Assembly: GCF_001426435.1 (NCBI RefSeq)
Contig: NZ_LMER01000018.1
Span: 102,825-143,074, forward strand
Length of the DNA stretch: 40,250 nt
From: Angustibacter sp. Root456
GTDB lineage: Bacteria > Actinomycetota > Actinomycetes > Actinomycetales > Angustibacteraceae
Reading direction: 5' to 3'
A program made the position numbers and the translations under genes. The notes under the pieces were generated by a model. It saw nothing but the letters and a program-made list of their open reading frames with translations. It was not told the DNA's origin and searched no databases. Shown here piece after piece: positions 3,035-19,932 of the stretch. The number at the start of each line of letters is the position of its first letter. Within the stretch, counting starts at the first letter, position 1.

Positions 3035-3040
3035 TAGGCT
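3035..3040 (+). promoter_or_regulatory. -10 element of the DUF2277 gene (leaderless)
   Basis: TAGGCT lies six bases before the ATG at 3047, which would place the transcription start on the A of the start codon. No Shine-Dalgarno sequence is visible, so the gene is probably translated from a leaderless mRNA. Confidence 0.6.
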
Positions 3041-3046
3041 CGTCGC

Positions 3047-3268
3047 ATGTGTCGCAGCATCAAGACCCTTCGTGAGCCGTACGTCGAGGACGTCGGCGAG
3101 GCCGACGTCCGAGCCGCTGCCTTGCAGTACGTGCGCAAGATCAGCGGCTTTCGACAGCCGGCCCCGCACAACGCGCAGGCGTTCGAGGCCGCCGTCGACG
3201 CGGTGGCGGCGGCCACCACGCACCTGCTCGACCAGCTGGAGGTGCGCGGCAGCCGCCGCCCGGCGTGA
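3047..3268 (+). CDS. DUF2277 family small protein
   Basis: A 73-residue protein beginning MCRSIKTLR, the hallmark N terminus of DUF2277, with the central phrase AALQYVRKISGFRQPA. The family is widespread in actinobacteria and some proteobacteria and has no established function that I know. It appears to have its own leaderless promoter and faces the convergent MFS gene of the formate operon, ending only 7 bp before that gene's stop. The N-terminal Cys-Arg-Ser-Ile is invariant in members I recall. There is no signal peptide or membrane segment. Confidence 0.85.
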   Translation: MCRSIKTLREPYVEDVGEADVRAAALQYVRKISGFRQPAPHNAQAFEAAVDAVAAATTHLLDQLEVRGSRRPA

Positions 3269-3275
3269 GTCGGCG

Positions 3276-4547: not shown

Positions 4548-4568
4548 GCTCTCTCCTCTACGGCCGGG

Positions 4569-5639
4569 TCAGCCGATGGTGGTGATGGAGTCCCCCACGA
4601 CGCCGTCTGCTCGACGTCGCTCGAGCCGTTCACGCTGTGGCGTGACGGTGTACTTCGGATCCTTGGCCGAGACGAGCCCGGCCTCGAAGACCCCGAACCG
4701 GGTGCAGGCCGACCCGGCGAGCAGCGCCGCGCCGCTGAGCGCGGCGGCTGCGCGGTTGCGGCCGAAGAGCGCCGCGCCCACCGCCCCCGACACCGTCAGC
4801 ACCTTGCTGGCCCGCATCAGCGCGCCGGCCCGCCCCTGCCTGAGCGGCTCGGCGACGACCTCGTGCATCGTGCGCTCCATGCGCTCGGTGGCGGCGATCT
4901 CGGCCACAGCACCGAGCACGGCGAGGCTGCGAGCGGGACGGGTCTCCGACGTCGGCGACGTCAGCAGAGCCAGCCCGGCCGCTGCGGCATTGGCCGACGA
5001 GACGAACACGAACGGCAGCTCCTTGTACGCCGCGTGCCACGTCGGCGTCGCGGTGTCGGCCAGGAGCACCGCGGTGTACGCCGCGAGCGGCGGCGCGAAG
5101 GCGGCCGACCCGGCGGCCGCGGCGGCGTCGGCGAGCTTCGCCAGGCCGCCGAGCGTCGACTGCTCGTCGAGGTGCGGGCGCACCACCTCCGTGGCCACCG
5201 CGAGCCCTGCGAACGCGCCGAACGCGGTGAGGATCCACGACCCGACCGACATGGGCGAGGTCAGCTTCACCGTGCGCATCATGTTGAGGGCGCGGCTCGG
5301 CTTGCCGAGGTCGCGCACCAACGCCACGCCACCTGCGGCGACGGCGGCGAGCGCGGCATAACGACTGTTGCGCCGCAACGTCTTCAGACCGCGCGCGTGC
5401 GCACCGGCCCCGAGCAGCCCGGAGCCCGCCGCGATCCCCCCGAGGAAGATGTAGGCCGGGATGTCAGCCTCCCACGGCGCCGGCTTGACCACCGGGCGCC
5501 CGTAGTAGCTGTCGAACTGGACGTCCGGCACCATGAGCGACTCGTCACGACGGCGACCACCGCCCTGACCTCCGCGCCGCCGACGCCCGGTGCGCGGCGG
5601 CTCCGGCGGCCGGTCCGCGTCGAACGGGTTGGTGGTCAC
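4569..5639 (-). CDS. NrfD/PsrC-like membrane subunit of formate dehydrogenase
   Basis: A 356-residue polytopic membrane protein of the NrfD/PsrC family, which accepts electrons from an iron-sulfur subunit and passes them to quinone. The first 45 residues are hydrophilic and rich in Arg/Gly. The family phrase SYYGRPVVKPAPWEADIPAY and the first membrane helix (YIFLGGIAAGSGLLGAGAH) follow, with about eight hydrophobic segments in all. The frame is open further upstream, but I chose GTG at 5639 because it overlaps the beta-subunit stop as GTGA. It replaces the cytochrome b gamma subunit of E. coli Fdh-N, so quinone reduction here is probably heme-independent. Confidence 0.85.
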   Translation of the reverse strand: MTTNPFDADRPPEPPRTGRRRRGGQGGGRRRDESLMVPDVQFDSYYGRPVVKPAPWEADIPAYIFLGGIAAGSGLLGAGAHARGLKTLRRNSRYAALAAVAAGGVALVRDLGKPSRALNMMRTVKLTSPMSVGSWILTAFGAFAGLAVATEVVRPHLDEQSTLGGLAKLADAAAAAGSAAFAPPLAAYTAVLLADTATPTWHAAYKELPFVFVSSANAAAAGLALLTSPTSETRPARSLAVLGAVAEIAATERMERTMHEVVAEPLRQGRAGALMRASKVLTVSGAVGAALFGRNRAAAALSGAALLAGSACTRFGVFEAGLVSAKDPKYTVTPQRERLERRRADGVVGDSITTIG

Positions 5640-6592
5640 CGGCGCCTCCCCAGGAACACGCTCGCGGCCATCGCGAGCATGCCGACGGCGGCGAAGCCCG
5701 CCTTGCGGAACATGTCGGGCAGGTCCGCGGTGGTCACCACAGGGTCCGGCGGCAGCCCGTACACCTCGGGCTCGTCGAGCAGCAGGAACACCGATCCCGT
5801 GCCACCCACGCCGTCGTGGTCGTTGCCGCCGTAGACGCGGGCCTCGGTGAATCCATTGGCGTGCAACGTCTTCACGCGCTCCTGAGCGCGCTCGCGCAGA
5901 TCGCTCAGCTCGCCGAACTGGATGGACGTCGTCGGGCAGGCCTGCGCGCACGCGGGCGTCTGGTCGTGGCTGATGCGGTCGTAGCAGAGCGTGCACTTCT
6001 GGGCGACGCCGGCGTTCTTGACCGTCGCGTCGCCCGCGCGCCGCTCGATGACCCCGAAGGGGCAGGCGGCCACGCAGTAGCCGCAGCCGTTGCAGACGTC
6101 GTCCTGCACGACCACCGTGCCGTGCTCAGTGCGGAACAGCGCACCCGTCGGGCACACGTCGAGACACGCCGCGTGCGTGCAGTGCTTGCAGACGTCGGAC
6201 GACATGAGCCAGCGGAAGTCCGGCACCTCCGCCAGCACGGGCTCAGCCACCGGTGCCGCGGCCGCCGGTCGCGGGCCGGGCATGCCGAGCTCGATGAGGC
6301 GCCGTCCGGACTCCCGGGCCTGCTCGATGCGCTCGGTGCTCTGCTCGACGAACGCGACGTGCCGCCAGGTGCTCGCACCGAGAGCACCGGTGTTGTCGTA
6401 CGACGACCCGAGCAGGTCGAGGTCGCCGTCCGGCGGGATGGCGTTCCACTCCTTGCAGGCCACCTCGCAGGCCTTGCAGCCGATGCAGATCGAGGTGTCG
6501 GTGAAGAAGCCCTTACGCGGCGGCGGGTCGTCCCACGCCGCGTCGCGCGCCGGGTCGGTCGGCCCCGCGAGCTGCTGCCTCCAGAAACCCAT
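5636..6592 (-). CDS. Formate dehydrogenase iron-sulfur (beta) subunit
   Basis: A 318-residue ferredoxin-like electron-transfer subunit. Four cysteine groups that would bind four [4Fe-4S] clusters are visible: CIGCKACEVACKEWN, CKHCTHAACLDVCPTGAL, CNGCGYCVAACPFGVI and CTLCYDRISHDQTPAC followed by CAQACP. A hydrophobic stretch near the C terminus (AAVGMLAMAASVFLG) may serve as a membrane anchor. The start is ATG 6592, which overlaps the alpha-subunit stop as ATGA. It carries electrons from the catalytic subunit to the NrfD-like membrane protein encoded next. No Tat signal is present, as expected for a cytoplasmic-side complex. Confidence 0.93.
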   Translation of the reverse strand: MGFWRQQLAGPTDPARDAAWDDPPPRKGFFTDTSICIGCKACEVACKEWNAIPPDGDLDLLGSSYDNTGALGASTWRHVAFVEQSTERIEQARESGRRLIELGMPGPRPAAAAPVAEPVLAEVPDFRWLMSSDVCKHCTHAACLDVCPTGALFRTEHGTVVVQDDVCNGCGYCVAACPFGVIERRAGDATVKNAGVAQKCTLCYDRISHDQTPACAQACPTTSIQFGELSDLRERAQERVKTLHANGFTEARVYGGNDHDGVGGTGSVFLLLDEPEVYGLPPDPVVTTADLPDMFRKAGFAAVGMLAMAASVFLGRRR

Positions 6593-9500
6593 CAGCGCTC
6601 GCCCTCCGACGTCCGCAACGTGTTGCCCGTCTGCACCGTGACCCCGGCCCGCGACTGGTACTCCGACACCCACCGCAGCAGCGCCTCGCCGCGCGGACGT
6701 CGGCCCGCCACGATGTCGCACGAGCCGGCCTTGGACTCCTGGATCTGCACGTTCGGGTCGAGCGCGACGCCGAGCAGGTCATTGGCGGAGTCGCCCGACA
6801 CCACGGCCTCGCGGCCGACGCCCCAGTGGTAGGGCAGGCCGATCTGGTGCACCGTGCGGCCACCGATCACCAGCGGCGTCATCCGCTCGGTCACCAGCAC
6901 CCGCGCCTCGATCGCGGTACGCGCCGACACGATCGTCGCCCAGCCGCCGTTCTCCAGCCCCCTCTCCTGCGCCAGCTCCGGCGAGACCTCGCAGAAGAAC
7001 TCGGGCTGCAGCTCGGCGAGGTACGGCAGCCACCGGCTCATGCCACCCGCCGTGTGGTGCTCGGTCAGCCGGTACGTCGTGAACACGTACGGGTAGACGT
7101 CGGCGCCCGGCTCGCCCGCCGAGGGGCTCCACAGGTTGTCCTTGCGCGCGAACACCTTGCGCGCCGGGTTGCTCTGCTGGCGGTAGAGCGGGTTGGCGAC
7201 CGGCGACTCCTGCGGCTCGTAGTGCGTCGGCAACGGGCCGTCGATCATGCCGCGCGGCGCGAACAGCCAGGCCTTGCCGTCGGCCTGCATGATGAACGGG
7301 TCGTCACCGGCCAGGCCCTCGGGCCCACCTGTCCCCGGCTCCGGCCGGTACGACGGCGGCTTGGTCACCGGGAAGTCCGGCACGTCGTGGCCGGTCCAGC
7401 GCTGCTGCTCCTCATCCCACCACACGTACTTCTTGCGCTCGCTCCACGGACGCCCTTCGGGGTCGGCGGATGCGCGGTTGTACAGGATGCGCCGGTTCGC
7501 CGGCCACGCCCAGCCCCAGTCGGGTGCGACCGGGCTCTGCTCGCGACCCGGGACGCGCTTGGCCGAGCGGTTCACTCCCCCGGCGAACACGCCCGTGTAG
7601 ATCCAGCAGCCACCACTCGTCGTGCCGTCGGCCCGCATCTCGGTGAACAGGTCGAGCAGCTGCCCGGCCCGGTCACCGCTGAGGTGGAAGCCGTTGATCT
7701 CCTTCAGCACCGCCTCGCTGTCGATCTCACCGTGCTCGTCGAGCGGGTAGTCCCACGTGAGGTCGAGCAGCGGACGGTCCCGCTCGTCGGTCGAGTCGGC
7801 GAGACGTTCGCGGATGCGCTGGCCGAGCTCGTAGAAGAACTGCAGCTCGCTCTGGCAGTCGCCCGGGGGCTGCACCGCCTGGTGCCGCCACTGCAGCATG
7901 CGGTGGGTCTGGGTGAACGTGCCGGCCTTCTCGACGTGCGAGGCGGGCGGCAGGAAGAACACCTCCGTGCCGATCTGCTCGGTCTCGAGCTCCCCCGTCG
8001 CGATCTCCGGGGCGTCCTTCCAGAACGTCGCCGACTCGATCATGTTCAGGTCACGCACCACCAGCCACTTCAGGCGGGCCAGCCCGAGGCGCTGCATGCG
8101 ACCGTGGGCCGACCCCACCGCGGGGTTCTGCCCGAGCAGGAAGTAGCCCTCGACCTGGTCGTCGAGCATTGCCATGACCGTCTGGTACGTGCCGTGGGCA
8201 CCGGTGAGGCGGGGCAGGTAGTCGAACGCCCAGTCGTTCTCGGCCGTCGCGGCGTCGCCCCACCACGCCTTCAACAGGCTCACCGCGTAGGCGTCGGCGT
8301 TGGCCCAGAAGCCCTTCTGCTCCTTCGAGCCGATGGCCGAGACGTACTCCTGCCAGGTGTCGTGCTGACCGGCGACCGGCATCGCGAGGTAGCCGGGCAG
8401 GATGTTGTACAGCGTCGGAATGTCGGTGGAGCCCTGGATGCTCGCGTGCCCGCGCATCGCCATGATGCCGCCGCCCGGGCGGCCCATGTTGCCCAGCAGC
8501 GTCTGCACGATCGCCGCGGTGCGGATGAACTGCGCGCCCAGCGTGTGCTGGGTCCAACCGACGGCGTAGACGAACGCGGTGGTGCGCTCCCGCCCGCTGT
8601 TCTCGGTGACCGCGCGGGCCAGGTAGTGGAAGTCGTCGACCGAGATACCGCACGTGTCGGCGACCAGCTCGGGCGTGTAGCGGGCGTAGTGCCGCTTGAG
8701 CACCTGGAACACCGTGCGCGGATGCTGCAGGGTCTCGTCGCGCTCGACCTCGGCGTGCTCGAGGGGATGACCGGCGCCGCCGAGCCGCTGGCCGGCCGAC
8801 GCCTCGCGCTTGTCAGCCCCGTGGTCGGACCCCGGCTCGTCGACCGTGCCGTCCTTCGCGCTGCCCGACCGTGTGGCGTACGACCAGCTCTTCAGGTCGT
8901 ACGCGCCGCGCTCGTCGTCGTACCCGGAGAACAGGCCGCCGAGGTCCTCGGTGTCGCGGAAGTCCTCCGACACCAGCGTCGCGGCGTTGGTGTAGGCGAC
9001 GACGTACTCCTTGAAGTACAGGTCGTTGCTGAGGATGTAGTTGATCAGCGCCCCCAGCAGGACGACGTCGCTGCCGGCCCGGATCGGGATGTGCTTGTCG
9101 GACGTCGCGGACGTGCGGGTGAACCGCGGGTCGATGTGGATGACCTTGGCGCCCTTGCGGCGCGCTTCGGCCACCCACTGGTAACCCACCGGGTGGCACT
9201 CGGCCATGTTGGAGCCCTGGATGACGATGCAGTCCGCGTTGGCGAGGTCCTGCTCGTACTGGGTGGCGCCGCCGCGGCCGAACGAGGACCCCAAACTGGG
9301 GACCGTTGCGGAGTGTCAAATACGGGCTTGGTTCTCGATCTGGATGGCGCCGGCAGCGGTGAAGAGCTTCTTGATCAGGTAGTTCTCTTCGTTGTCGAGG
9401 GTGGCCCCACCGAGCGAGGCGATGCCCATGGTGCGCCGCACCCTGCGCCCGTGCTCGTCGTGGTCCTGCCAGGTGCGGCGGCGGGACTCGACGAACCGGT

Positions 9501-9885
9501 CGGCGATCATGTCGATGGCGGTGTCGAGGTCGAGGCTCTCCCACTGCGTGCCGCGCGGGCGGCGGTAGAGCACCTTCGTCTGGCGGCCGGGGCTGTTGAC
9601 GAGCTGCTCGCTCGCCGAGCCCTTGGGGCACAGCCGTCCGCGCGAGACCGGCGAGTCCGGGTCACCCTCGATCTGGACGACGCGCTCGTCCTTGACGTAC
9701 ACCCGCTGACCGCAGCCGACGGCGCAGTAGGGGCAGACGCTCTGCACGACGCGGTCAGCGGTGACCGTGCGCGGGGTGAGCTCGCGCGTGTGCTGGCTCG
9801 TGACGGCCGGCCCCCGGCCGAGGAAGTCACCACTTCGGACCTGGCGGATGACCGGCCAGCTCAGGAACTGCGGTTTGTTGCGCAT
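6592..9885 (-). CDS. Selenocysteine-containing formate dehydrogenase, alpha subunit
   Basis: A 1097-residue molybdopterin oxidoreductase of the Fdh-N/Fdh-O type that oxidises formate to CO2. The N-terminal [4Fe-4S] motif is C51-x2-C54-x3-C58-x27-C86. An in-frame TGA at 9318-9316 (codon 190) sits between NQARI and HSATVPSLG, exactly where Fdh-N has selenocysteine (NQARVUHGP), and the frame stays homologous on both sides. A stem-loop right after the TGA suits a SECIS. Starting at ATG 9885 gives a good GGGAGGAG. There is no twin-arginine signal, unlike E. coli FdnG, so the enzyme is probably cytoplasmic. It heads the operon with the beta, NrfD-like and MFS genes. A naive gene call would split it at the TGA. 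Confidence 0.93.
9286..9318 (-). promoter_or_regulatory. UGA(Sec) codon with candidate bacterial SECIS hairpin
   Basis: The Sec codon is the TGA at 9318-9316. Starting 12 nt later, GGTCCCC and GGGGTCC (9304-9298 and 9292-9286) pair around the loop AGTTT, with one U-U mismatch low in the stem. The apical loop begins about 18 nt after the UGA, against about 17 nt in E. coli fdhF, and the U in the stem recalls the bulged U recognised by SelB. No selA, selB, selC or selD gene lies in the window, so decoding depends on genes elsewhere. Confidence 0.75.
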
Positions 9886-10013
9886 GCAACTCCTCCCTCG
9901 ACTCGGCACAACATGCCACAGAGCCGGGTGAAGGGCACCAGATGACCGGTGCGGCGCGCCGAGCGGGCGAGAGGGGTCGGTGAACGGCGCTCAGCCGCCG
10001 CCGTCGCCCGACG

Positions 10014-10517
10014 TCACTTCAGCAGCAGCGCGGTCAGCCGACGCCGCGTCACGGCCAGGCCGACGGCGCCCATGGCCACCAGCGCGGCCACGTGGCCGAC
10101 CAGCGACCAGCTCACGGTGCCGAGCAACAACGCCCGCTCGATCGCCACGCCGTGGTAGAGCGGCGACAGCTCGACCACCCAGCGCAAGCCGGCGGGATAC
10201 GCCTCGACCGGGAAGAACGTCGCCGACAGCAAGGTCAGCGGCACGAGCGCCATCTGGATGTAGTCGAAGTCCTGGAAGTTGCGGATCCAGGTGGTGGCAG
10301 CCATGCCGACCGAGGAGAACACGAAACCGATGAGCGTCGCGGCCGGCAGCGCGAGCACCGCCCACCAGCTCGCCGTCAGCCCCATCGCCACGGAGATGCC
10401 GAGGAAGCCGAGCACGTAGCAGCCGCTGCGCAGGAGCGACCACAGCGTCTCGCCCAGGGCGATGTCGCGGGGCCCCACCGGCGTCGCGAGCATGGCGTCG
10501 AACGTGTGCATGTAGCG
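10014..10517 (-). pseudogene. C-terminal fragment of ABC-2 permease 2 (split host copy)
   Basis: These 167 codons plus stop (RYMHTFDAMLATPVGPRDIALG through RRRLTALLLK) are the C-terminal two thirds of an ABC-2 permease. The N-terminal 89 codons lie more than 6 kb away at 16793-17059. Joining the two at the repeat CAGCTTGAA gives an unbroken 256-codon gene, the same length as the intact homologue at 15954-16724. The fragment still reads cleanly with no stops, so the split is probably recent. It has no start codon or ribosome site of its own; the upstream sequence that stays in frame belongs to the insert. It is probably not expressed. Confidence 0.9.
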
Positions 10518-10526
10518 CAGCTTGAA
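10518..10526. repeat. Left boundary direct repeat of the island
   Basis: CAGCTTGAA, identical to 16793-16801. The next nine bases (CAAGTTGTT) also resemble the bases following the right copy (GAACATGTT), giving 15 matches in 18. This is the pattern expected of recombined attachment sites that share a core with imperfect flanks. On the minus strand the repeat reads TTCAAGCTG, encoding Phe-Lys-Leu of the permease. Confidence 0.75.
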
Positions 10527-10854
10527 CAAGTTGTTCCCTGGTACACACGAACAGTTGCAGACTGCTGACTTTCGTGGTGCGGCCAACGGACAGACTAAGA
10601 CCGTTGCATCGGCAGCAGAACACTCCGATCGCCTCTGCGAGTGCCACTGACCTTCGAAAGGTTCGTCGCTTCAAACCCCCACGGTCGGAGCCGGCCGCTA
10701 ACATCATCGGCGGGCTGGGCCACTCGTTTGCGCGAAACGGCGTGCGGACCGGACTGATAAGCGGGCTTTCAGCCTTCACCCCTGGGTGAGGCCTCTGGGG
10801 CAGATGCCAGAGGTGTTGACTTGATGCATGGCAGCTCCGACTTAAAGGAGACTA
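10527..10854 (+). other. Gene-free leader of the SLATT-RT pair; possible structured RNA
   Basis: These 328 bases hold no convincing gene. They contain two clear hairpins: ACCTT-CGA-AAGGT in the middle, and CCTCTGG-8 nt-CCAGAGG at 10792-10813, a perfect 7-bp stem just before the SLATT gene. TAACAT near 10700 could serve as a -10. Many defence-associated reverse transcriptases work with a non-coding RNA encoded beside them, so this is the natural place to look for one. This is structure plus context only; no known RNA family is recognised. Confidence 0.4.
10792..10813 (+). repeat. Perfect 7-bp inverted repeat upstream of the SLATT gene
   Basis: CCTCTGG, an 8-nt loop (GGCAGATG), then CCAGAGG. 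It ends 41 bases before the GTG start of the SLATT gene and is not followed by a T-run, so it does not look like a terminator. It could be an operator, a translation-control hairpin or part of an RNA. Confidence 0.6.
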
Positions 10855-11439
10855 GTGGCCCAGCCTCCAAAGACAGTGCCCGAGCTACTCGAGGCCCTCG
10901 AAGACCGCTCATTCACCACCTACAAATGCCGGATTCGAGCTTACGAGCGCATCCAAGGCCGCAGCCGGGCTTGGAACGCCGCCCTCATCTCATTGGCCAC
11001 GGCAACAACCGTGGCGGCCATCGGGCTCTTAGTTGACGACTCCATGTACGGAGCATCAGGTGAGACCCTCTTAGCGGCATGCTCGGTGCTGGCGCTCGCT
11101 GCGTCGCTCGTAGTGGCTTCGCTCGACTACCCGGGTAGAGCGGTACGCGTGGAGGTCAACTACAAGGAAATACAGGACATTGCGTCACGCATTCAGGCCG
11201 CCAGGAGCGTTAACAGCCAACCCACCCTGGCAAACTATTACGACTTGCACGGATCGTATAGCGACCTTGTTCGACACTCTGAGAACCACACTAGCGGCGA
11301 CCGCGACGCCTATGAAGGCAACATCTCCTGGTCGCGATTCTTCACCTTTGCACTAACCTTTCTGCCATACGCAACTTTCGTACTGCCGATGTGGCTGTTC
11401 TGGCAGTTCGGGGCATGGGTCATCCATGGCTCGGGCTAG
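10855..11439 (+). CDS. SLATT-domain membrane protein (putative pore-forming effector)
   Basis: A 194-residue protein with two adjacent hydrophobic segments (about 41-60 and 71-90). A hydrophilic helical region follows, with NYKEIQDIASRI and SENHTSGDRDAYE, and there is a third hydrophobic segment near 162-187. This arrangement fits the SLATT family of two-helix effectors. I recall that one subfamily (SLATT_5) is typically paired with reverse transcriptases and predicted to depolarise membranes when triggered. The GTG start at 10855 has AAAGGAG five bases upstream. The next gene, a reverse transcriptase, overlaps its end by 14 bp, so the two are translationally coupled. The function as toxin or effector is inferred from family and context. 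Confidence 0.75.
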   Translation: MAQPPKTVPELLEALEDRSFTTYKCRIRAYERIQGRSRAWNAALISLATATTVAAIGLLVDDSMYGASGETLLAACSVLALAASLVVASLDYPGRAVRVEVNYKEIQDIASRIQAARSVNSQPTLANYYDLHGSYSDLVRHSENHTSGDRDAYEGNISWSRFFTFALTFLPYATFVLPMWLFWQFGAWVIHGSG

Positions 11440-12796
11440 TTACCGCACACCGTCCGAGTCCTTCCGCCGTGTGACCACGCTTCGGAATTTGAAGGCGATA
11501 TTCGAGGATCGAGTGGCAAAAGGCACGGTACGTGGGCGCGATGGCGTCTCTGTACATGCCATTCGAGCGGACCTCGATGCCGTGACTAGGTATGTGTCGG
11601 TGCGCTGTCGTGCCGGTTCGTACCAGTTCACCACGTACCGGCCAAGACTGCTCCTGAAGGGGGCAGGCAAGCCGCCTCGAGAGATCTCGATACCGACCGT
11701 CCGTGACCGCATCGCACTCAGAGCATTGACGGAGCTTCTTGCTGAGACCTTCCCGAACTGTGTAGGTAAGCTACCGCAAACCGAGGTGGCCGCGGTGGCG
11801 AAAGACCTCGACGCAGGGAACTTCGACAGTTTCGTCAGAATCGACGTCAAGAACTTCTACCCCTCTATCGATCACGAAGTTCTGTTGCGGGAACTTGCCA
11901 CTCGTATCCGTTCGAGAGCGATACTTCGTGTTGTGCGCCGGGCGATAGCAACGCCCACAGCTCCCGACCGATCAGCGCGTCCTACAGCCCTGCTCTCGGC
12001 CGGCGTGCCGCAAGGTCTCTCGATTTCAAACCCTCTGGCTGAGATTTACATGCGCTCTGTGGACACGACCATGGCATCCATGTCCAACGTCTCGTACCAC
12101 CGTTTTGTGGATGACATCCTGGTGCTATGCCAGGCTTCGGACGCTCAAGCAATCGACGACGCGTGCCGTTTAGCGCTGGGTGCGATCAAGCTCTCCGCAC
12201 ATCCCAGCATGGCGGCCGGGAAGTCAGAGATCGGGTTGATCGCCGACGGGTTCACTTACTTGGGTTACACGTTCAGTAGCGCTCACGTGAGCGTGCGCCT
12301 CTCAAGCATTGTTCGCCTCGAGTCGCACCTTGCCAGCATCTACGCCAAGTGGCGCCAAGAACGTGAAGGCGACGCCGTAAGCGCTGACACCGCGCTCCGA
12401 CGCCTAATCTGGCATCGAAACCTTGCCATCACTGGGTGCATCTTCCAGGGTGTCGCCAGCGGTTGGATTCAGTATTTTCGGCAACTCGACGACCTGATGC
12501 TCCTGAAGCGCCTCGATGCCACCGTTTCGCGTCTAAGCAAGCGATACAGCGTGCCGAAAACCCCACTTCCCAAGACATTCATGCGCGCGTACTGGGCAAT
12601 TAAACATCCCAGATCGCGTAGCGAAGACTACATTCCGAACTTCGACCTTTACGACGTGCCCAAGATGAGGCTCGAGCTCGAAGCCATGGGAATCACGGAC
12701 GCAATGGGAACCGACCAGCAGGTCCAGGACAAGTTCTTCCGCATTGTGAGTAGGGCAGTGCGGGACCTCGAACATGACATCGGCGACGTCTCCTGA
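11426..12796 (+). CDS. Reverse transcriptase, defence-associated (DRT/UG-like)
   Basis: A 456-residue RNA-directed DNA polymerase. Motif A is RIDVKNFYPSID (D140), motif B is GVPQGLSISNPLAEIYM (about 193-209) and the catalytic motif C is FVDD (227-230). A C-terminal region of about 200 residues continues with LTYLGYTF-like thumb sequence (GFTYLGYTFSS). No maturase X, HNH or integrase domain is visible, so it is not a group II intron or retrotransposon protein. No retron msr-msd was identified. It overlaps the SLATT gene by 14 bp. RT-plus-SLATT pairs belong to the abortive-infection/DRT world, where the RT senses or answers phage and the membrane protein kills the cell. The exact subtype cannot be assigned by eye. 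Confidence 0.88.
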   Translation: MARASYRTPSESFRRVTTLRNLKAIFEDRVAKGTVRGRDGVSVHAIRADLDAVTRYVSVRCRAGSYQFTTYRPRLLLKGAGKPPREISIPTVRDRIALRALTELLAETFPNCVGKLPQTEVAAVAKDLDAGNFDSFVRIDVKNFYPSIDHEVLLRELATRIRSRAILRVVRRAIATPTAPDRSARPTALLSAGVPQGLSISNPLAEIYMRSVDTTMASMSNVSYHRFVDDILVLCQASDAQAIDDACRLALGAIKLSAHPSMAAGKSEIGLIADGFTYLGYTFSSAHVSVRLSSIVRLESHLASIYAKWRQEREGDAVSADTALRRLIWHRNLAITGCIFQGVASGWIQYFRQLDDLMLLKRLDATVSRLSKRYSVPKTPLPKTFMRAYWAIKHPRSRSEDYIPNFDLYDVPKMRLELEAMGITDAMGTDQQVQDKFFRIVSRAVRDLEHDIGDVS

Positions 12797-12985
12797 CCTG
12801 CCTGTGGGACGCATCCCTCCTTCCCGGATACCGGCACGCGGTGGCACTCAAGTCCCAGCACACGGGCAAGACAATGCGTTCGGCGCCACAAACCAACTGG
12901 CGGTTCGCGAGAGGGTCAGCGAACTTCATCGCACGGCTCAGTGCGTTCCCGCACAATAGAAGGCCGCGCTGCGGCTGTTGGTCAC
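12797..12985. other. Convergent gap between RT and DUF4062 genes
   Basis: These 189 bases separate two converging genes. Short hairpins occur near both ends (GGGA-CGCA-TCCC just past the RT stop and CCGC-GCT-GCGG near 12964), possibly weak terminators. No gene is supported here. Confidence 0.4.
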
Positions 12986-14056
12986 CTATGCCGTCTCCGG
13001 CCGCTTGGTCGCCTTCAGCCGCACCAAGTACTCATCCCCCGCCGGCGTAAGCGTCCAATAGACAGCCTTGTCGGATACAGTCCGCTTCTTACTTCCCGTG
13101 GTGATGATTCCCAAGGCTCGAAGTTGCACGAGGATTCGACCCCACGAGTCGTTCGTGATTGTCATTCGTGGGGCCGCAGCACCATCCCAGTTACTATCGG
13201 GAATTTCGAGCAAATACTTCCATGCGTACGAGCAAAACGTCGCTCGGAGTGCGGGCTCCGCAGCCTCGTCGATCATAGACGGACCTAATGCGTCGACAAT
13301 CTCATCCCATGTGAATTCGAGTTCGACCGCCTGCGATTCTCTGGTATACGTGCCGTGCGAGACTACGAATTCAAGTTCAACTTCATCGCTCCCGTGTTCG
13401 AATGATTCGTTGATTTCATTTCCACCATCCCGCGCAGCCAATTCCGTTCGCCGCTGTTCCGCCTGCGCCAGCGCTGCACGCAGTTCAGCCACTTCAGCTC
13501 GTACAGCGTCGGTCATCGCCTGGTCCCCTCGCACCCATCCGGGTCTGGGGTTCCGCTTCATTGCCCTAACCAGGCCACGGGACACGACGGACGCCAATTC
13601 CTCTGCGGTTCGATACTCTTTGACCATCCGCTGCATTACTTTGGCTCGAAACGCATCTAGGCGCACCCTGGCGGTGGCGTCAATTTCCGACATGTTCACT
13701 GGAATCGATCCCGGGTCCGAGTGCACGAAGCCCAGCACGGGAATGCCCTTGGCGACAGCGTAGTCATATTCCATTTCGGTGAAACTTACGCCGTCTGAGG
13801 TTACGGACCCATAGCGGCCACCAACCACGACAATGTAATAGTCGCTCAGGTCGATAACCTCGCGAATGAGTGTCCACTGATCCTCGCTTGCTGCAGGGAA
13901 CATCTCCATACCAGCGGGAATACAATCGAGCTCCAAAAGAGCCTGTATTATGGCGCGCCGCTCCTCGACTAAGTCCAGATATGTCGAACTCACGAATACC
14001 TGGTGCCGCCGATCGAGCGTCGTCTGCGCGTTCACGCTCAGCACCCTAGCGGCCAT
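12986..14056 (-). CDS. DUF4062 domain protein with C-terminal winged-helix-like region
   Basis: A 356-residue protein. Residues about 18-105 are a clear DUF4062 domain: QVFVSSTYLDLVEERRAII, IVVVGGRYGS and SFTEMEYDYA. DUF4062 is a Rossmann-like domain, comparable to TIR/SLOG domains, found in conflict systems and at the N terminus of some NLR-like proteins. A heptad-like helix follows (about 185-210, AVRAEVAELRAALAQAEQRR). The C-terminal part ends in a probable winged helix (RILVQLRALGIITTGS, YWTLTPAGDEYLVRL). ATG 14056 has GAGGA upstream. It is divergent from the ATPase gene across a 124-bp gap with a palindrome. It is likely a sensor or effector of the ATPase system; no catalytic activity can be claimed from the sequence. 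Confidence 0.75.
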   Translation of the reverse strand: MAARVLSVNAQTTLDRRHQVFVSSTYLDLVEERRAIIQALLELDCIPAGMEMFPAASEDQWTLIREVIDLSDYYIVVVGGRYGSVTSDGVSFTEMEYDYAVAKGIPVLGFVHSDPGSIPVNMSEIDATARVRLDAFRAKVMQRMVKEYRTAEELASVVSRGLVRAMKRNPRPGWVRGDQAMTDAVRAEVAELRAALAQAEQRRTELAARDGGNEINESFEHGSDEVELEFVVSHGTYTRESQAVELEFTWDEIVDALGPSMIDEAAEPALRATFCSYAWKYLLEIPDSNWDGAAAPRMTITNDSWGRILVQLRALGIITTGSKKRTVSDKAVYWTLTPAGDEYLVRLKATKRPETA

Positions 14057-14103
14057 GCGCTCGTCCTCGCGCTGTGATCCTCATGCCTGTTGGCGGGTCC
14101 CGC

Positions 14104-14129
14104 TGGCGCAACATGCATGCAGTGCGCCA
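14104..14129. promoter_or_regulatory. Candidate operator between the DUF4062 and ATPase genes
   Basis: TGGCGCA, twelve bases centred on ATGCAT, then TGCGCCA: a 7-bp perfect inverted repeat with a palindromic core. It starts immediately downstream of a minus-strand -10-like TATGTT (14134-14129), so a bound dimer would sit on the transcription start of the DUF4062 gene and upstream of the ATPase gene. The role is inferred. Confidence 0.5.
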
Positions 14130-14134
14130 ACATA
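14129..14134 (-). promoter_or_regulatory. Candidate -10 of the DUF4062 gene
   Basis: TATGTT on the minus strand fits TANNNT and would give a leader of about 65 nt before the ATG at 14056. It abuts the inverted repeat at 14104-14129. Confidence 0.4.
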
Positions 14135-14180
14135 GTCCCGGCTGGATGCGAGGGTGGTCCGGCGGGGTGGAGGAGGGACC

Positions 14181-15734
14181 GTGGAGACACGAGAAGCGAA
14201 CCTAGTGTGGGCGTCCATCGAACGCCGGGCCGAGAATGCCGATGGCCATGACCACCTAGCCGAGCTGGTCGAGCTGGAGGACATCAATCCCACATTCGAC
14301 GCCACGTCAATGGTGATCTTTGGGCGGCGGGGCGCTGGCAAGACGCATACCCTGCTGCACCTACGACGAAAAGTCGAGAATTCGGGCGACGTTGTCGTAT
14401 ACATCGATATGCGGAAATTGTCATCAAATGCCGGGATATATGCTGACGACACCATGGCGTTCGGTTCAAGGGCGACGAACATACTGGTTGACGTCGTCAA
14501 TGAAGTACATGAGGAGCTGTATCGGCTAGCCGTCCTCGGTGGCAGTGAGATTCTCAACGAGAACCTTCACGTTGTCGGGCCTGCGCTTGATGAACTCGGA
14601 GACGCCGTGACGGAGGTGCGAGTCTCTGGTGAGACAGTAGTGCAAGTCGACGCCAGTGCCGAAGGCACGCACGAACAGTCAGGCAGCTCTCTTGCGACCT
14701 TCTCACAAAAGCCGTCGGCGACAATCTCCAGGGCCAGAAAGAGTATTCGCAAAGCCTCGAGAGCCTACCTCGAAAGACACACCGGCCACCCCAGTATCTA
14801 CGTCCATTTGGGCCGCCTTGATAGTGCTATCCGCCGCATTGTCGATTCCCTGGATGGAAAAAGGCTGTGGCTCCTAATCGACGAATGGTCGGGAGGAGTG
14901 CCTTACGATCTACAGCCCATCCTCGCAGACATGCTTCGACGCAGCTTCATCAGTGCGCCTGGAGTAATAGTCAAGATTGGTGCTATCGAACATCGATCGC
15001 GCTTCATCACGGAGGCAAGCAACGTCGAGTACGTGGGGTTAGAGTTGGGGTCCGACACCGCGGAGTCTCTAAGCCTCGACTCGAAATTGGTGATCAGAAC
15101 CGATCCGCGGCCGTCGCGCGCTTTCCTGTCTCAACTCCTGTCCGAGCACTTCCGCATCGCGTGCACGGCGGCCGGTGCTGTGTCGCCGGATGACCCTATC
15201 CGTGCATCCTTCGGCCGTGACGCCTTCGACGTCTTGGTTCTCGCTTCAGAGGGTAATCCCCGCGATGCAATCAACCTCACATCGAAGGCCGCCCGGAAGG
15301 CCATGGACAGTTTGGTCACGAGGGAGCACGTCCTTCGGTCCGCCGAAGACTACTTCTGGAACACGAAGTACAAGAACATCGAAGGCACCCGAGAACTCGA
15401 GAAGGTGTTCGAAGCGTTCGTCACGAATTCCTTCAGTCGCGGCGTACGCACGATTCTCTTCGAGCGGAGCGACAAGAGACGCGTCGCCGTTGACCGACTC
15501 AATGATCACCGTCTCATCCACTTGATCCGGAGCGGCCTTCGGCCCCCAGGCGGTGGCGCTCTATACGACGCGTACGCAATCGACTTTGGCTCGTACGCGG
15601 AGAGAATCCTCCGCAAGGAAATGCAGTGGCGCAACGACGGCTTCGCAAGCCCGCTGAGCTTTCAGCTCGATCCGAACGCCGAGTCGTGGCGTGAGGCTGT
15701 CGTGCGCCGCAAGTCCGGCCACAGCCACGAGTAG
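14181..15734 (+). CDS. P-loop (AAA/ORC-like) ATPase, putative defence protein
   Basis: A 517-residue ATPase. Walker A is GRRGAGKT (48-55) and Walker B is LLIDEW (231-236). In between lies a long insert of about 100 residues that is polar around 150-190. After the AAA core come helical lid-like phrases (SEGNPRDAINLTSKAARKAM) and a C-terminal region with a possible winged helix (DRLNDHRLIHLIRSGLRPP). This resembles ORC/CDC6-like and NACHT-type ATPases used in conflict systems, but I cannot name the subfamily. I chose GTG 14181, preceded by GGAGGAGGG; an in-frame GTG at 14154 has no ribosome site. It is divergently paired with the DUF4062 gene, suggesting a two-component sensor/effector system. 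Confidence 0.75.
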   Translation: METREANLVWASIERRAENADGHDHLAELVELEDINPTFDATSMVIFGRRGAGKTHTLLHLRRKVENSGDVVVYIDMRKLSSNAGIYADDTMAFGSRATNILVDVVNEVHEELYRLAVLGGSEILNENLHVVGPALDELGDAVTEVRVSGETVVQVDASAEGTHEQSGSSLATFSQKPSATISRARKSIRKASRAYLERHTGHPSIYVHLGRLDSAIRRIVDSLDGKRLWLLIDEWSGGVPYDLQPILADMLRRSFISAPGVIVKIGAIEHRSRFITEASNVEYVGLELGSDTAESLSLDSKLVIRTDPRPSRAFLSQLLSEHFRIACTAAGAVSPDDPIRASFGRDAFDVLVLASEGNPRDAINLTSKAARKAMDSLVTREHVLRSAEDYFWNTKYKNIEGTRELEKVFEAFVTNSFSRGVRTILFERSDKRRVAVDRLNDHRLIHLIRSGLRPPGGGALYDAYAIDFGSYAERILRKEMQWRNDGFASPLSFQLDPNAESWREAVVRRKSGHSHE

Positions 15735-15953
15735 TGACTTGGAGTCGACTCCACCGTCGCCTTCGGCAGCGGTCAACTCGGAGTGCGTCGGCAACACCGG
15801 CTCGGCAGGTGTGGGGGCCGGGGACGGCCATTCGCTCCTCAACTCACCCTAGGCTTGCCCACTCGATGTAGCGCTGCGCGCTTGCCATAGCGAGCCGTAG
15901 CAACTTCTCGAGTGATGTCGCTCGACCACCAAGTCCACCGGCTCGAGCTAGAG
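15735..15953. other. Gap between island ATPase and rescue permease, with 12-bp palindrome
   Basis: These 219 bases lie between two convergent genes. GGAGTCGACTCC at 15741-15752 is a perfect 12-bp palindrome seven bases after the ATPase stop and may act as a terminator hairpin. No gene is supported. The GC content rises again here relative to the ATPase gene. Confidence 0.45.
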
Positions 15954-16724
15954 CTACTTCAATAGCAGTGCCGCAAGGCGGCGACGCGTGACGGCCAGGC
16001 CGACGGCTCCCATCGCCACCAATACCGCGACGTGCCACACCAGCGACCACCCCGCCGTGCCGAGGAGAAGCGCCCGCTCGATCGCCACTCCGTGGTACAG
16101 CGGCGACAGCTCGACCACCCAGCGCAGGCCGGCGGGGTAGGCCTCGACCGGGAAGAACGTCGCCGACAGCAGGGTGAGCGGAACGAGGGCCATCTGGATG
16201 TAGTCGAAGTCCTGGAAGTTACGAATCCACGTGGTCGCCGCCATGCCGACTGACGAGAACACAAAGCCGATCAGTGTGGCCGCGGGGACCGCTAGAACCG
16301 ACCACCAGGACGTCGTGAGCCCCATCGCGACCGAGATCAGAAGAAAACCGATGACGTACGCGCCACTCCTCAGGAGCGACCAGAGCATCTCACCTAGCGC
16401 GATGTCGCGCGGCCCCACGGGAGTCGCCAGCATTGCGTCGAACGTGTGCATGAATCGAAGTTTGAAAAACATGTTGTACGTGGCATCGAAGACGGCGCCG
16501 TTCATGGCCGACATCGCGAGCATCGCCGGCGCCATGAACTGCGCGTAGGTCACCAGCCGACCGTCGGCCAACGGGATGCGCCCGATGAGCGCACCCAGCC
16601 CCACGCCCAGCGAGAACAGGTAGAAGACCGGCTCAAGGAACCCGGTGAGGAACGCCACCCACTGCCGTCGGTAGGTGAGCACGTTGCGCTCGACGACGAC
16701 ACCGGCCAGCCCCAGCGCCGACAT
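15954..16724 (-). CDS. ABC-2 type permease 2, intact copy carried by the island
   Basis: A 256-residue ABC-2 export permease with about six membrane helices, from MSALGLAGVVVERNVLTYRRQ to RRRLAALLLK. It is homologous along its full length to the split host gene (16793-17059 plus 10014-10517), with about 14 amino-acid differences by eye. In the first 89 codons about 26 of 260 bases differ but only one residue does (Tyr for Cys60), so it has been under purifying selection. Its ATG overlaps the stop of the truncated host fragment as TAATG, with GGAGGGTGG upstream, so it should be translated as the third gene of the ABC operon. It most likely replaces the disrupted permease. Confidence 0.9.
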   Translation of the reverse strand: MSALGLAGVVVERNVLTYRRQWVAFLTGFLEPVFYLFSLGVGLGALIGRIPLADGRLVTYAQFMAPAMLAMSAMNGAVFDATYNMFFKLRFMHTFDAMLATPVGPRDIALGEMLWSLLRSGAYVIGFLLISVAMGLTTSWWSVLAVPAATLIGFVFSSVGMAATTWIRNFQDFDYIQMALVPLTLLSATFFPVEAYPAGLRWVVELSPLYHGVAIERALLLGTAGWSLVWHVAVLVAMGAVGLAVTRRRLAALLLK

Positions 16725-17059
16725 TAGGCCACCCTCCATCGCTCGACCCGAAGCAGCCCGAGGCCCCGCGAGATTTTCTTGCCGTTGGTACACAGCTTGA
16801 AGAACATGTTGTAGGTGGCGTCGAAGACCGCGCCGTTCATGGCTGACATCGCGAGCATGGCCGGCGCCATGAACTGCGCGCACGTCACCAGGCGGCCGTC
16901 GGCCAGCGGGATGCGACCGATGAGCGCCCCCAGGCCCACCCCGAGTGAGAACAGGTAGAACACCGGCTCGAGGAACCCGGTGAGGAACGCCACCCACTGT
17001 CGGCGGTACGTCAGGACGTTGCGCTCGACGACGACGCCGGCCAGCCCCAGCGCGGACAT
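16724..17059 (-). pseudogene. N-terminal fragment of ABC-2 permease 2 (split host copy)
   Basis: The first 89 codons (MSALGLAGVV to MFFKL) belong to the host permease, starting with ATG 17059 that overlaps the permease 1 stop as ATGA. From 16792 the frame runs into island sequence for 22 more codons (CTNGKKISRGLGLLRVERW...) and stops at TAA 16726-16724. That stop overlaps the start of the intact copy. The 111-residue product keeps perhaps two membrane helices and is unlikely to work as a transporter. Its frame may serve to hand ribosomes to the replacement gene. The missing part is at 10014-10517. Confidence 0.88.
16793..16801. repeat. Right boundary direct repeat of the island
   Basis: CAGCTTGAA, identical to 10518-10526. 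It encodes Phe87-Lys88-Leu89 of the host permease on the minus strand. Just inside the island is GGTACACA (16786-16793), also present inside the left end. Confidence 0.75.
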
Positions 17060-17892
17060 CACACCACCATCCGACGGCGCAGGGTGCGGATCGCCAGCCA
17101 GCCACCGACGAGGATCCACAGCAGCAGGTAGGCCACGTGGCCGGCGTCCGCCGCCAGGTGCACGGTGCCCAACGTGGCGTCACGCGCCAGCGTGGCCCCG
17201 TGCCACAGCGGGACGACGTAGGCCACCGGGTGCATCCAGGCCGGCAGCTGCTCGACCGGGAAGAAGGTGCCGGAGAACAGGAACATCGGCACGATGCCGA
17301 GCCGGAACACGAGGTTGAAGGTCGTGTCGGTCTCGGCGTGCGCGGAGATGGCGAACATCGGCGCCGCGTAGGCCAGGGTCACCAGCACGACGGCGAGCAG
17401 AGACACCACACCCCAGGCCGAGGGCACCGCGCCGAGTGCCGCCGCGACCGCGAGGAACACCACGGAGCTGAGCAGCGAGCGCAGCACGATCGCGGTGAGG
17501 TTGCCGACGACGATGTCGCTCACGCCGATCGGTGTGGCCAGCATCGCGTGGTACTGACGCTGCCACTTGATGGCCCCCAGCACCGGCCACGACGCGTCGA
17601 AGACGCCGGTCTGCATCGCCGTCGCCGCGAGCACTCCGGGCGCGATGAACTGCATGTACGGCACGCCACCCATCGCCGTGGACCCGCCGCGGTCGACCAA
17701 CGAGCCGAGCCCGTAGCCCATGGCGACGAGGTAGAGCAGGGGCGAGACGAAGCTGCCGAAGATCGTGCCGCGGAAGGTGCGCCGGAGCAGGACGAGGAAG
17801 TAGTCGAGCACCCGCACGGCGGGGTGCGGGACCCGAGCCGGCGCACCGGAGGCATCCGGCGGCCGCACCGCGGTGGCCGTCGCGCCCGCCAT
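17059..17892 (-). CDS. ABC-2 type transporter permease 1
   Basis: A 277-residue membrane protein of the ABC-2 (drug/lipid exporter) family with about six hydrophobic segments. Family-like phrases include FLVLLRRTFRGTIFGSFVSPLLYLVAMG (split over the first helix), QYHAMLATPIGVSDIVVGNL and FSGTFFPVEQLPAWMHPVAYVVPLWHGATLAR. It starts at ATG 17892, overlapping the ATPase stop as ATGA, and ends overlapping the permease 2 start as ATGA, so the operon is tightly coupled. With permease 2 it should form the heterodimeric membrane channel of the exporter. The layout resembles DrrABC-type or lipo-oligosaccharide (NodJ-like) exporters; the substrate is unknown. Confidence 0.88.
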   Translation of the reverse strand: MAGATATAVRPPDASGAPARVPHPAVRVLDYFLVLLRRTFRGTIFGSFVSPLLYLVAMGYGLGSLVDRGGSTAMGGVPYMQFIAPGVLAATAMQTGVFDASWPVLGAIKWQRQYHAMLATPIGVSDIVVGNLTAIVLRSLLSSVVFLAVAAALGAVPSAWGVVSLLAVVLVTLAYAAPMFAISAHAETDTTFNLVFRLGIVPMFLFSGTFFPVEQLPAWMHPVAYVVPLWHGATLARDATLGTVHLAADAGHVAYLLLWILVGGWLAIRTLRRRMVV

Positions 17893-18872
17893 CAGTCGAC
17901 CAGCGTCCGGCCGGTGAGCCGCAAGAACACGTCCTCCAGCGTGCTGCGGCGCACCAGCGACGACAGTGGCTGCACGCCCCGCTGGTGCGCGGCGCCCGTG
18001 GCGGCCTCGCCGTCGTCGACGTACAGCAGCAGGCGGTCGGGCAGCACCTCGACGCGGTCGGCGATGCCGTCCAGCCGGCGGGCGTGGGGCGTCAGGTCGT
18101 CGTCGGCGAACCGCAGCTCGAGCACCTCCCGGGTCGACCACGTCTCGATGAGCGAGCGCGGGCTGCCCTCGGCGACGATCTTGCCGCCGTCCATCACGAC
18201 CAGCCGGTCGCACAGCTGCTCGGCCTCGTCCATGTAGTGCGTCGTGAGCACGAGGGTGACCCCCTGCCGCTTGAGCCGGAACAGCCGGTCCCACAGCACG
18301 TGGCGAGCCTGGGGGTCCAGGCCGGTCGTGGGCTCGTCGAGCAGCAGGATCTCAGGACGGTTGATCAGGGCGCGGGCGATGGTGAGCCGGCGCTTCATGC
18401 CACCAGACAGTGGCTCGACGAGCGAGTCGGCGCGCTCGGTGAGGTTGGCGAACTCGAGCAGCTCGTCGGCGCGGCTGCGGCACTCAGCCCGGCTGAGCCC
18501 GAAGTACCGGCCGTAGATGAGCAGGTTGTCGCGCACCGTCAGCTCGCCGTCGAGGGAGTCCTGCTGGGGGACGACGCCCAGCCGCGCGCGGATGCGCGGA
18601 CCGTCCCGACGCGGGTCGAGCCCCAGGATCTGCAGCTCGCCGCCCGACGGCGGCGAGACGCAACCGACCATGCGCATCGTCGAGGACTTGCCGGCGCCGT
18701 TCGGCCCCAGGAAGCCGAAGGCCTCGCCGCGGGTCACCGTGACGTCGATGCCGTCGACGGCCACGAAGTCGCCGAACTGCTTGCGCAGCCCGCGGGCCTC
18801 GATCAGCGCCTCACCCGGCTGCTGGCCCGTGCCCTGCGCCGTCGCGCTCGCCACCGCATCCGCCCCTGTCAC
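17892..18872 (-). CDS. ABC-2 exporter ATP-binding protein (DrrA/NodI-like)
   Basis: An ABC ATPase of about 326 residues. Walker A is GPNGAGKS, the signature is LSGGMKRR and Walker B is ILLLDEPT followed by the switch His in TTHYMDEAEQ. A C-terminal extension of about 90 residues (TLEDVFLRLTGRTL) is typical of DrrA/NodI exporters. I place the start at GTG 18872 because a TAGGGT -10 lies seven bases before it, suggesting a leaderless mRNA. The frame is open to a TTG at 18902, which has no ribosome site. It is the first gene of the operon with permease 1 and permease 2. It supplies energy for export of an unknown, probably hydrophobic, compound. Confidence 0.9.
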   Translation of the reverse strand: MTGADAVASATAQGTGQQPGEALIEARGLRKQFGDFVAVDGIDVTVTRGEAFGFLGPNGAGKSSTMRMVGCVSPPSGGELQILGLDPRRDGPRIRARLGVVPQQDSLDGELTVRDNLLIYGRYFGLSRAECRSRADELLEFANLTERADSLVEPLSGGMKRRLTIARALINRPEILLLDEPTTGLDPQARHVLWDRLFRLKRQGVTLVLTTHYMDEAEQLCDRLVVMDGGKIVAEGSPRSLIETWSTREVLELRFADDDLTPHARRLDGIADRVEVLPDRLLLYVDDGEAATGAAHQRGVQPLSSLVRRSTLEDVFLRLTGRTLVD

Positions 18873-18879
18873 GTCGACG

Positions 18880-18885
18880 ACCCTA
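18880..18885 (-). promoter_or_regulatory. -10 of the ABC exporter operon (leaderless)
   Basis: TAGGGT on the minus strand, with seven bases before the GTG at 18872, so transcription would begin at or one base before the start codon. This would drive the ATPase, permease 1 and, through the truncated fragment, the island-borne permease 2. Confidence 0.55.
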
Positions 18886-18961
18886 GACACCCCCACCGAC
18901 AACGGGCGAACTGTTATCTCCCCGTTCGGCGGGTCGCCCGTCAGCCGTCAGCGGACGAACC

Positions 18962-18967
18962 TAGGCT
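18962..18967 (+). promoter_or_regulatory. Candidate -10 of the L,D-transpeptidase gene
   Basis: TAGGCT fits the TANNNT consensus used elsewhere in this window. Transcription would start near 18974, giving a leader of about 65 nt before the ATG at 19039. Confidence 0.5.
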
Positions 18968-19038
18968 CGAGATGCAACCCGAGCCGCTGCTGGCGCGTCT
19001 GTGTTGGTGACGGAGGCGCTCACTCACGGGGGGACCAC

Positions 19039-19932
19039 ATGCGAAGCACGTTCCGCGTTCCGACGGCCGCAGCGGCCGTGGCTGCGCTCGCGCTCGGGCT
19101 CAGCGCCTGCGGCAGCGGGGGCGACCCGACGGCGTCGTCATCCACGACGACCGTCGCAGACCCGGTGACCACGTCGCCGACGACGAGCACGACCACGAGC
19201 CCGACGACGGCCACCTCACCGACGACGAGCCCGACGTCGACCACTCCCGCGTCCCCCACGTCGACCACGACCTCGACCACGACCTCGACACCGGCGACCA
19301 CCACCACGACGAAGGCGCCGCCGCCCGTCACCGAGAAGACCACGCTGCGCCCTGGCATGAGCGGGCCCTACGTGCTGCGGGCCCAGCAACGACTCAGCGC
19401 GCTGGGCTACTGGCTCGGCAGCGCCGACGGTGAGTACGGCTACCTCACGAGCCAGGCGGTGATGGCCCTGCAGAAGGCTGCGGGCCTCGGTCGCGACGGC
19501 ATCCTGGGCCCGAAGACCAAGGCGGCGCTCGAGCGCGGGGTGCGCCCGGACGCCCGTACCCGCTCGGGCTCGGCCATCGAGGTCGACAAGACCCACCAGC
19601 TCGTGCTCGTGGTGCTCGACGGCCGGCTGCGCTACGTGCTCAACACCTCGACCGGCAGCGGTCGGCCGTACACCTCCGACGGGCACACGTACGTCGCGAC
19701 GACGCCCGAGGGCCGGTTCAGCGTGCAGCGGCAGATCGACGGCCTGCGGGTGAGCCGACTCGGCGAGCTGTGGCGGCCGAAGTACTTCACCGGCGGCTAC
19801 GCGTTGCACGGTTCGCCGAGCGTGCCCGGCTTCCCCGCCTCGCACGGGTGCGTGCGGCTGTCGAACCCCGCCATCGACTTCCTGTGGTCGTCCGGCGTGG
19901 CGCCGATCGGGCGCACCGTCTGGGTGTACTGA
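19039..19932 (+). CDS. L,D-transpeptidase lipoprotein with peptidoglycan-binding domain
   Basis: A 297-residue exported protein. It has a signal peptide with lipobox LSAC (Cys24), then a Ser/Thr/Pro-rich linker of about 75 residues made of imperfect TTS/TSTT repeats. A PG_binding_1 domain (about 106-165, PYVLRAQQRLSALGYWLGSADG and ILGPKTKAALE) follows. A YkuD catalytic domain comes last, with the active-site motif HGSPSVPGFPASHGCVRLSN (nucleophile about Cys271). It forms 3-3 cross-links in peptidoglycan on the outer face of the membrane. ATG 19039 has GGGGGGA upstream. The frame is open further upstream, but the lipoprotein signal fixes this start. Catalytic assignment is firm; the exact role among paralogues is unknown. 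Confidence 0.93.
   Translation: MRSTFRVPTAAAAVAALALGLSACGSGGDPTASSSTTTVADPVTTSPTTSTTTSPTTATSPTTSPTSTTPASPTSTTTSTTTSTPATTTTTKAPPPVTEKTTLRPGMSGPYVLRAQQRLSALGYWLGSADGEYGYLTSQAVMALQKAAGLGRDGILGPKTKAALERGVRPDARTRSGSAIEVDKTHQLVLVVLDGRLRYVLNTSTGSGRPYTSDGHTYVATTPEGRFSVQRQIDGLRVSRLGELWRPKYFTGGYALHGSPSVPGFPASHGCVRLSNPAIDFLWSSGVAPIGRTVWVY

Follow-up and report, generated by a model that had tools for sequence, protein, structure and literature searches.

An island in an Angustibacter transporter operon carries a complete copy of the permease gene that it interrupts

Results

In Angustibacter sp. Root456, an island of about 6.27 kb splits the last gene of an ABC transporter operon and carries, at its operon-facing end, a complete and constrained copy of the split gene, whose start codon overlaps the stop codon at which the broken host frame ends. 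The window (the whole 40,250-nucleotide stretch of contig NZ_LMER01000018.1 that was analysed) contains the operon on its minus strand in the order ATPase, permease 1, permease 2. The first gene encodes a NodI/DrrA-like ATPase (17892-18902, minus strand; PF00005, E=1.1e-30) that matches both the nodI and the drrA models of NCBIfam, in each case under the model cut-off, and the second an ABC-2 permease (permease 1; 17059-17892, minus strand; PF01061, E=2e-16) whose translation stops at TGA 17061-17059. By matching to the island-encoded protein, permease 2 was recovered as two minus-strand pieces, a 5' fragment that by codon count comprises codons 1-89 (16793-17059) and a 3' fragment comprising codons 87-256 and the stop (10014-10526), both of them open coding frames. 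The operon is intact and syntenic in G001, the sole other member of the genus among the four family genomes compared, where window segments 10016-10535 and 16794-18808 hit adjoining, slightly overlapping stretches of a single locus. The island thus interrupts permease 2.

A scan that was not built for actinobacterial promoters returned no sigma-70-like promoter in 15700-19200, and the same segment has two terminator-like hits where 1.0 is expected. On the far side of the split gene, about 6.8 kb of sequence adjoining it (3251-10013) is unmatched at the corresponding position of G001, in which the end of permease 2 adjoins a block matching window positions 3035-3250. This segment includes a minus-strand frame (6592-9909), which we presume from its motif to be formate-dehydrogenase-like, with an internal TGA at 9318-9316 (context NQARI-U-HSATV) and no further internal stop. 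As read from its sequence, the frame probably encodes a selenoprotein; a weak SECIS_3 match overlaps it at 9263-9321 (29 bits against a gathering threshold of 63, E=0.0032).

The island itself (10527-16792) is delimited by repeats, by the comparison with G001 and by GC content. The 9-bp direct repeat TTCAAGCTG flanks both ends, its left copy at 10518-10526 (an attL-like junction) and its right copy at 16793-16801 (an attR-like junction), both given on the minus strand, so that the island enters permease 2 at codons 87-89; together with the intact empty site in G001, this is the configuration of an integrative element. The four cargo genes have a GC content of 57-59%, against 71-74% for long host stretches of the window, a composition unlike that of the host. 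They begin on the plus strand with a gene for a SLATT_5 membrane protein (10855-11439; PF18160, E=1.6e-40; PADLOC RTasSLATT, E=6.6e-59), which lies immediately upstream of one for a UG17-type reverse transcriptase (11426-12796; PADLOC RT_UG17, E=3.4e-140). This is the gene arrangement of DRT10, which a published account describes as a UG17 reverse transcriptase, a SLATT protein and an ncRNA (PMC12632851). No ncRNA was matched here: upstream of the SLATT gene, where the DRT10 ncRNA would lie, the segment 10600-10854 has no Rfam match and folds scarcely better than shuffles (z -0.79). The remaining cargo comprises a DUF4062 gene (12986-14056, minus strand; PF13271, E=2.3e-27) and a gene for an ORC-CDC6-like AAA ATPase (14154-15734, plus strand; PF24389, E=1e-6, barely past the cut-off), which are divergent within 12986-15734 and possibly form another module for defence; PADLOC mad8 is also matched weakly by the AAA protein (E=3.3e-8).

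How the island entered is suggested by its ends. Beyond TTCAAGCTG the island end resembles the target in the manner of an att site (15 of 18 positions identical, core included), terminal inverted repeats are absent (4 of 20 positions), and joining the island ends yields a near-palindrome of 18 bp, symmetrical at 14 of 18 positions. These features, taken together, suggest site-specific recombination. Neither a recombinase nor a transposase was found among the island proteins scanned, which for the recombinase comprised the five main proteins and ten small ORFs, and the mechanism of insertion is therefore unproved. Elsewhere in the genome, tyrosine recombinases are matched at three places and large serine recombinases lie at two more (L039:3834-5357 and L040:7737-9134), the latter being possible candidates for action in trans, without support from their sites. 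Beside recombinases L039-L041, three of the five such places, a search for the att-like core gave nothing clearly above shuffles (17-18 of 29 positions against 16-19 in shuffled sequence); the 17 positions at L041, against 16 in its shuffles, are not counted as a match, and L039 and L040 did no better than shuffles.

The complete copy of permease 2, which we call the rescue copy (15954-16724, minus strand; 256 aa; PF01061, E=7.3e-21), is close kin to the gene that it would replace. Its sister in a 32-row protein tree is the host gene (support 100/96), the two being joined next by G001 (86/64) and G591, and its homology to G001 is gene-sized (15944-16737). The rescue copy and the host gene differ at 118 of 771 positions (nucleotide identity over the 5' fragment, 0.895), mostly without effect on the protein: dN is 0.005 and dS 0.547 over the 5' part (dN/dS about 0.01), and dN is 0.061 and dS 0.784 over the 3' part (dN/dS about 0.08). 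With G001 as outgroup, the changed codons on the rescue branch are 35 synonymous and 5 non-synonymous, and the rescue protein has therefore been conserved by selection. We also considered whether the core within the rescue copy had been specially altered to escape the recombinase and rejected the idea, since 2 of 9 core positions and 5 of 24 surrounding positions differ, no clear excess over the 118 of 771 for the whole gene.

The composition of the rescue copy has meanwhile moved away from that of its relatives. With the same outgroup, GC-to-AT and AT-to-GC changes number 25 and 3 on the rescue branch and 10 and 9 on the host branch (Fisher p=0.007). The rescue copy has G or C at 222 of 256 third codon positions (GC3) and the host gene at 248 of 256 (p=3.4e-5), the former being the lowest value among 32 permease 2 genes; the other 30 orthologues lie between 0.92 and 0.996, including the closest relatives G001 (0.965) and G591 (0.945). 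The low GC3 suggests long residence on a low-GC element or origin in a low-GC donor species; the former reading draws on the composition of a single island, and a lower-GC donor would give the same signal.

At the junction, the host frame opens with ATG 17059-17057 and runs for 89 codons as far as 16793, where the shared core ends; it continues through 22 island codons (16727-16792, minus strand) and ends at TAA 16726-16724, which has one base in common with the start codon of the rescue copy (ATG 16724-16722). This TAATG (16722-16726, minus strand), in which stop and start codons overlap as in a coupled gene pair, had been noticed in the first-pass annotation and is seen directly in the sequence. 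The same annotation gave ATGA as the native coupling of the two permeases, but the native junction is TGATG (17057-17061, minus strand), in which TGA 17061-17059 and ATG 17059-17057 likewise overlap by 1 nt. The proposal that chance would produce the new overlap only rarely goes too far. The overlap itself appears to be inherited, as set out below, and the coincidence that remains is that the host frame meets it in register through an open tail: the 66-nt tail can be read in three frames, of which just the one in use ends at the TAA, and the chance of the right frame and no earlier stop is 1/3 x 0.55, or about 0.18. The rescue copy also has Shine-Dalgarno-like pairing of -10.7 kcal/mol, near the native value (-12.0 for the host gene, -11.4 for G001); it may therefore be translatable without coupling, which need not be essential.

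Where the overlap came from is indicated by the relatives and by the bases in front of the rescue copy. The two closest relatives in the tree, G001 and G591, have TGATG at the same start as the host gene. Of the 17 nt that precede the rescue ATG, 11 agree with the end of host permease 1 (P=0.00095 for 17-mers of the island and 0.0018 for those of the host window), a match that may in part be ordinary Shine-Dalgarno similarity, since the controls are random 17-mers and not ribosome-binding sites. Read as codons, the last of the 22 island codons resemble the C-terminus of permease 1, R-W-R-V-A-stop before the rescue ATG aligning with R-R-M-V-V-stop, although the stop at the rescue junction is TAA, unlike the TGA of the nearest relatives. 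The TAATG overlap was thus probably inherited from the donor operon, and the simplest reading of this alignment is that the rescue copy was taken along with the last codons of the donor's permease 1, overlapping stop included.

A wider count adds little to this argument. We scored the junction in 32 relatives, comprising loci from the 29 best-matching genomes among the 108 others in the order search and three of four named loci (L038 was omitted because its contig starts within the gene), and an overlapping start was present in 32/32 (29 NTGA, 3 TGATG). We do not take this as strong proof of an ancestral overlap, because 104 of 160 (65%) out-of-frame stops inside permease 2, examined as a control, likewise touch an in-frame start codon, because the loci are related to one another, and because the overlapping start is the last start before the homologous region in just 6/32 loci. 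At L010 and L034, two of the three TGATG loci, there is also an in-frame start 1 base upstream of the stop. Inheritance is therefore argued from the host gene, from G001 and G591, and from the 17-nt match.

The island is the one example found in the samples searched. Permease 2 is split at this site in none of the 108 other genomes of the order sample that match at E<=1e-30, nor among the matches listed for the class sample (153 other genomes, E<=1e-25), which go down to about E=6e-34, the best matches of 30 of the 153 genomes being weaker by the count of the genome table; partial matches in G533, G466 and G475 have ends that are not at codons 87-89. The two samples overlap in genomes, and up to six candidates were scored per genome; the E limits of 1e-30 and 1e-25 could miss a diverged 90-residue 5' fragment, and less readily a 170-residue 3' fragment. 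Among permease homologues in IMG/VR, two stretches fitted the pattern and none was a relative, while none of the 240 permease matches in plasmid records reaches 60% identity, and Rhizobium and Sinorhizobium account for 201 of these matches. Nine loci with homologues of the reverse transcriptase or the AAA protein (L054-L062) contain some repeats but none clearly has the same arrangement, and at L061 one ORF is matched by two shorter neighbours. At L058, two frames of about 480 codons (6429-7877 and 11238-12689), 59% identical and inverted, flank the AAA homologue. A contig of a Nocardioidaceae MAG (L038:1-492) starts almost exactly at the codons where the island enters permease 2, which may be accidental or may mark a similar insertion at which the assembly broke.

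Discussion

Why should an island that breaks a transporter gene contain the whole of that gene? We consider it probable, though well short of certain, that an island with a complete permease 2 recombined at the 9-bp core and that the overlap at its end is a relic of a donor's permease 1. In this scenario, a small integrative island would have recombined at codons 87-89, parting the 5' end of permease 2 from the 3' end, and the complete gene at its operon-facing end would take the place of the broken one downstream of permease 1. The rescue copy would have carried some 17 nt of the end of the donor's permease 1 with its overlapping stop codon, and the truncated host frame would run into this relic in the right frame by luck, so that a ribosome finishing the fragment would stop on the start codon of the rescue copy. 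The recombinase would either have been lost or have acted in trans. Transcription across the junction and coupling in vivo are thus predicted from the arrangement of the genes. Part of the earlier proposal is borne out by our analysis: an interrupted permease 2 is followed, in the same operon order, by a complete and constrained replacement that overlaps the end of the broken fragment's frame. The view that the overlap is something rare, or built for its purpose at the island end, is not supported, given that TGATG occurs at the same start in the host, in G001 and in G591 and that an apparent tail of a donor's permease 1 precedes the rescue copy.

It is conceivable that the island end evolved for translational coupling, selection having picked frame and overlap so that ribosomes leaving the fragment translate the rescue gene. 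The in-frame junction, the 1-nt overlap and the open tail of 22 codons would all be expected in that case, and the native permeases overlap as well. However, an inherited overlap requires no selection for a new one, frame and openness together have a chance of about 0.18, the rescue copy has its own Shine-Dalgarno-like site, and no second island that would show conservation was found in the samples searched; we regard such selection as unlikely. A different question is how long the rescue copy has belonged to the island. A chance recombination, in the course of this transfer or not long before it, could have joined the permease 2 of a lower-GC relative to the island without making it a standing part of the element, which would rival long residence only and leave the rest of the preferred scenario untouched. 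The copy is gene-sized, a single case was found, and its GC3 could reflect the donor genome; yet this GC3 is under that of all 30 sampled orthologues, G001 and G591 among them, and the copy is placed where rescue is needed, so that we are inclined to doubt a one-off capture without dismissing it.

Other explanations concern the insertion itself. A transposon or retroelement that duplicated 9 bp of target on entry, with the rescue copy stemming from an unrelated earlier duplication, would explain the direct repeat around the insert, which moreover encodes a reverse transcriptase. We rejected this reading for the lack of terminal inverted repeats and consider it very unlikely: no transposase occurs in the proteins scanned, the best match of the reverse transcriptase is the UG17 defence type, and the island end is like the target past the 9 bp. 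That two near copies lie side by side might also raise the suspicion of an assembly artefact fusing two similar genes. This is scarcely credible, as 118 differences in 771 positions go beyond ordinary assembly confusion, both host halves keep open coding frames, and the contig spans 250,242 bases in a genome scored at 100% completeness and 0% contamination.

Elements that restore their own target gene on entry are already well known. According to one account, the attP of integrative elements usually carries replacement sequence for the target gene, as for icd and many tRNA genes (PMC10111431). The island resembles such elements in that it enters a gene and supplies coding sequence that preserves its function, here a predicted one. 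In icd-type elements, however, the replacement sits in attP and the recombinant target is functional, whereas here it is a separate whole gene with an upstream stop, the host part is a fragment, and no integrase was found among the island proteins scanned; an in-frame fusion of the replacement to the host part at the att core is absent, the host part ending at a stop. The same source says of helper-embedded satellites (HE-PICIs) that they have captured a 'backup intact copy' of the late gene in which they sit (PMC10111431). There, too, the interrupting element holds a complete copy of the interrupted gene, but prophage genes are hit and integrases are present, whereas the island sits in a transporter operon of the chromosome and no integrase was found among its scanned proteins.

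The stop/start overlap can be set beside those for which a published study describes termination-reinitiation coupling (PMC6728339). Both the TGATG and the TAATG junction have a 1-nt overlap of this kind, the difference being that at the island junction the upstream frame is a broken fragment and not a normal gene. Compared with the known gene-restoring elements, what is distinct here is that the replacement is an entire gene of its own, preceded by a stop, within an operon and in an island with no integrase found. CIMEs are att-flanked elements that derive from an ICE or IME and lack recombination genes of their own. The island has recombination-site-like flanking repeats as they do, and no recombination gene was found in the proteins scanned; it differs in that no related ICE, from which it might derive by deletion, was found at this site. 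Our search of the literature on target-gene replacement and integrase-less elements returned no like case; we claim no priority, and key work lies beyond that search. According to the paper that describes it, the TIGER/Islander software requires an integrase gene. Island finders of this type would therefore leave such an island unlisted, and any finder with that requirement would miss it.

A more far-reaching possibility, which we put forward tentatively and with some doubt, is that an island without its own recombinase keeps a whole replacement gene, together with its neighbour's end and the overlapping stop, as a standing part. If this is true, the island could insert into this operon in one new host after another without loss of transcription or translation, and the copy would drift towards the base composition of the element under selection at the protein level. 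Such low-GC drift under purifying selection would offer a possible way to separate standing rescue genes from chance captures. With a rescue copy that is complete, constrained, in operon order and at the island end facing the operon, its function being predicted, the arrangement in Angustibacter sp. Root456 suggests how a defence island can occupy a conserved transporter operon and yet cost its host little, as far as is apparent, by supplying a whole spare gene and not a patched end.
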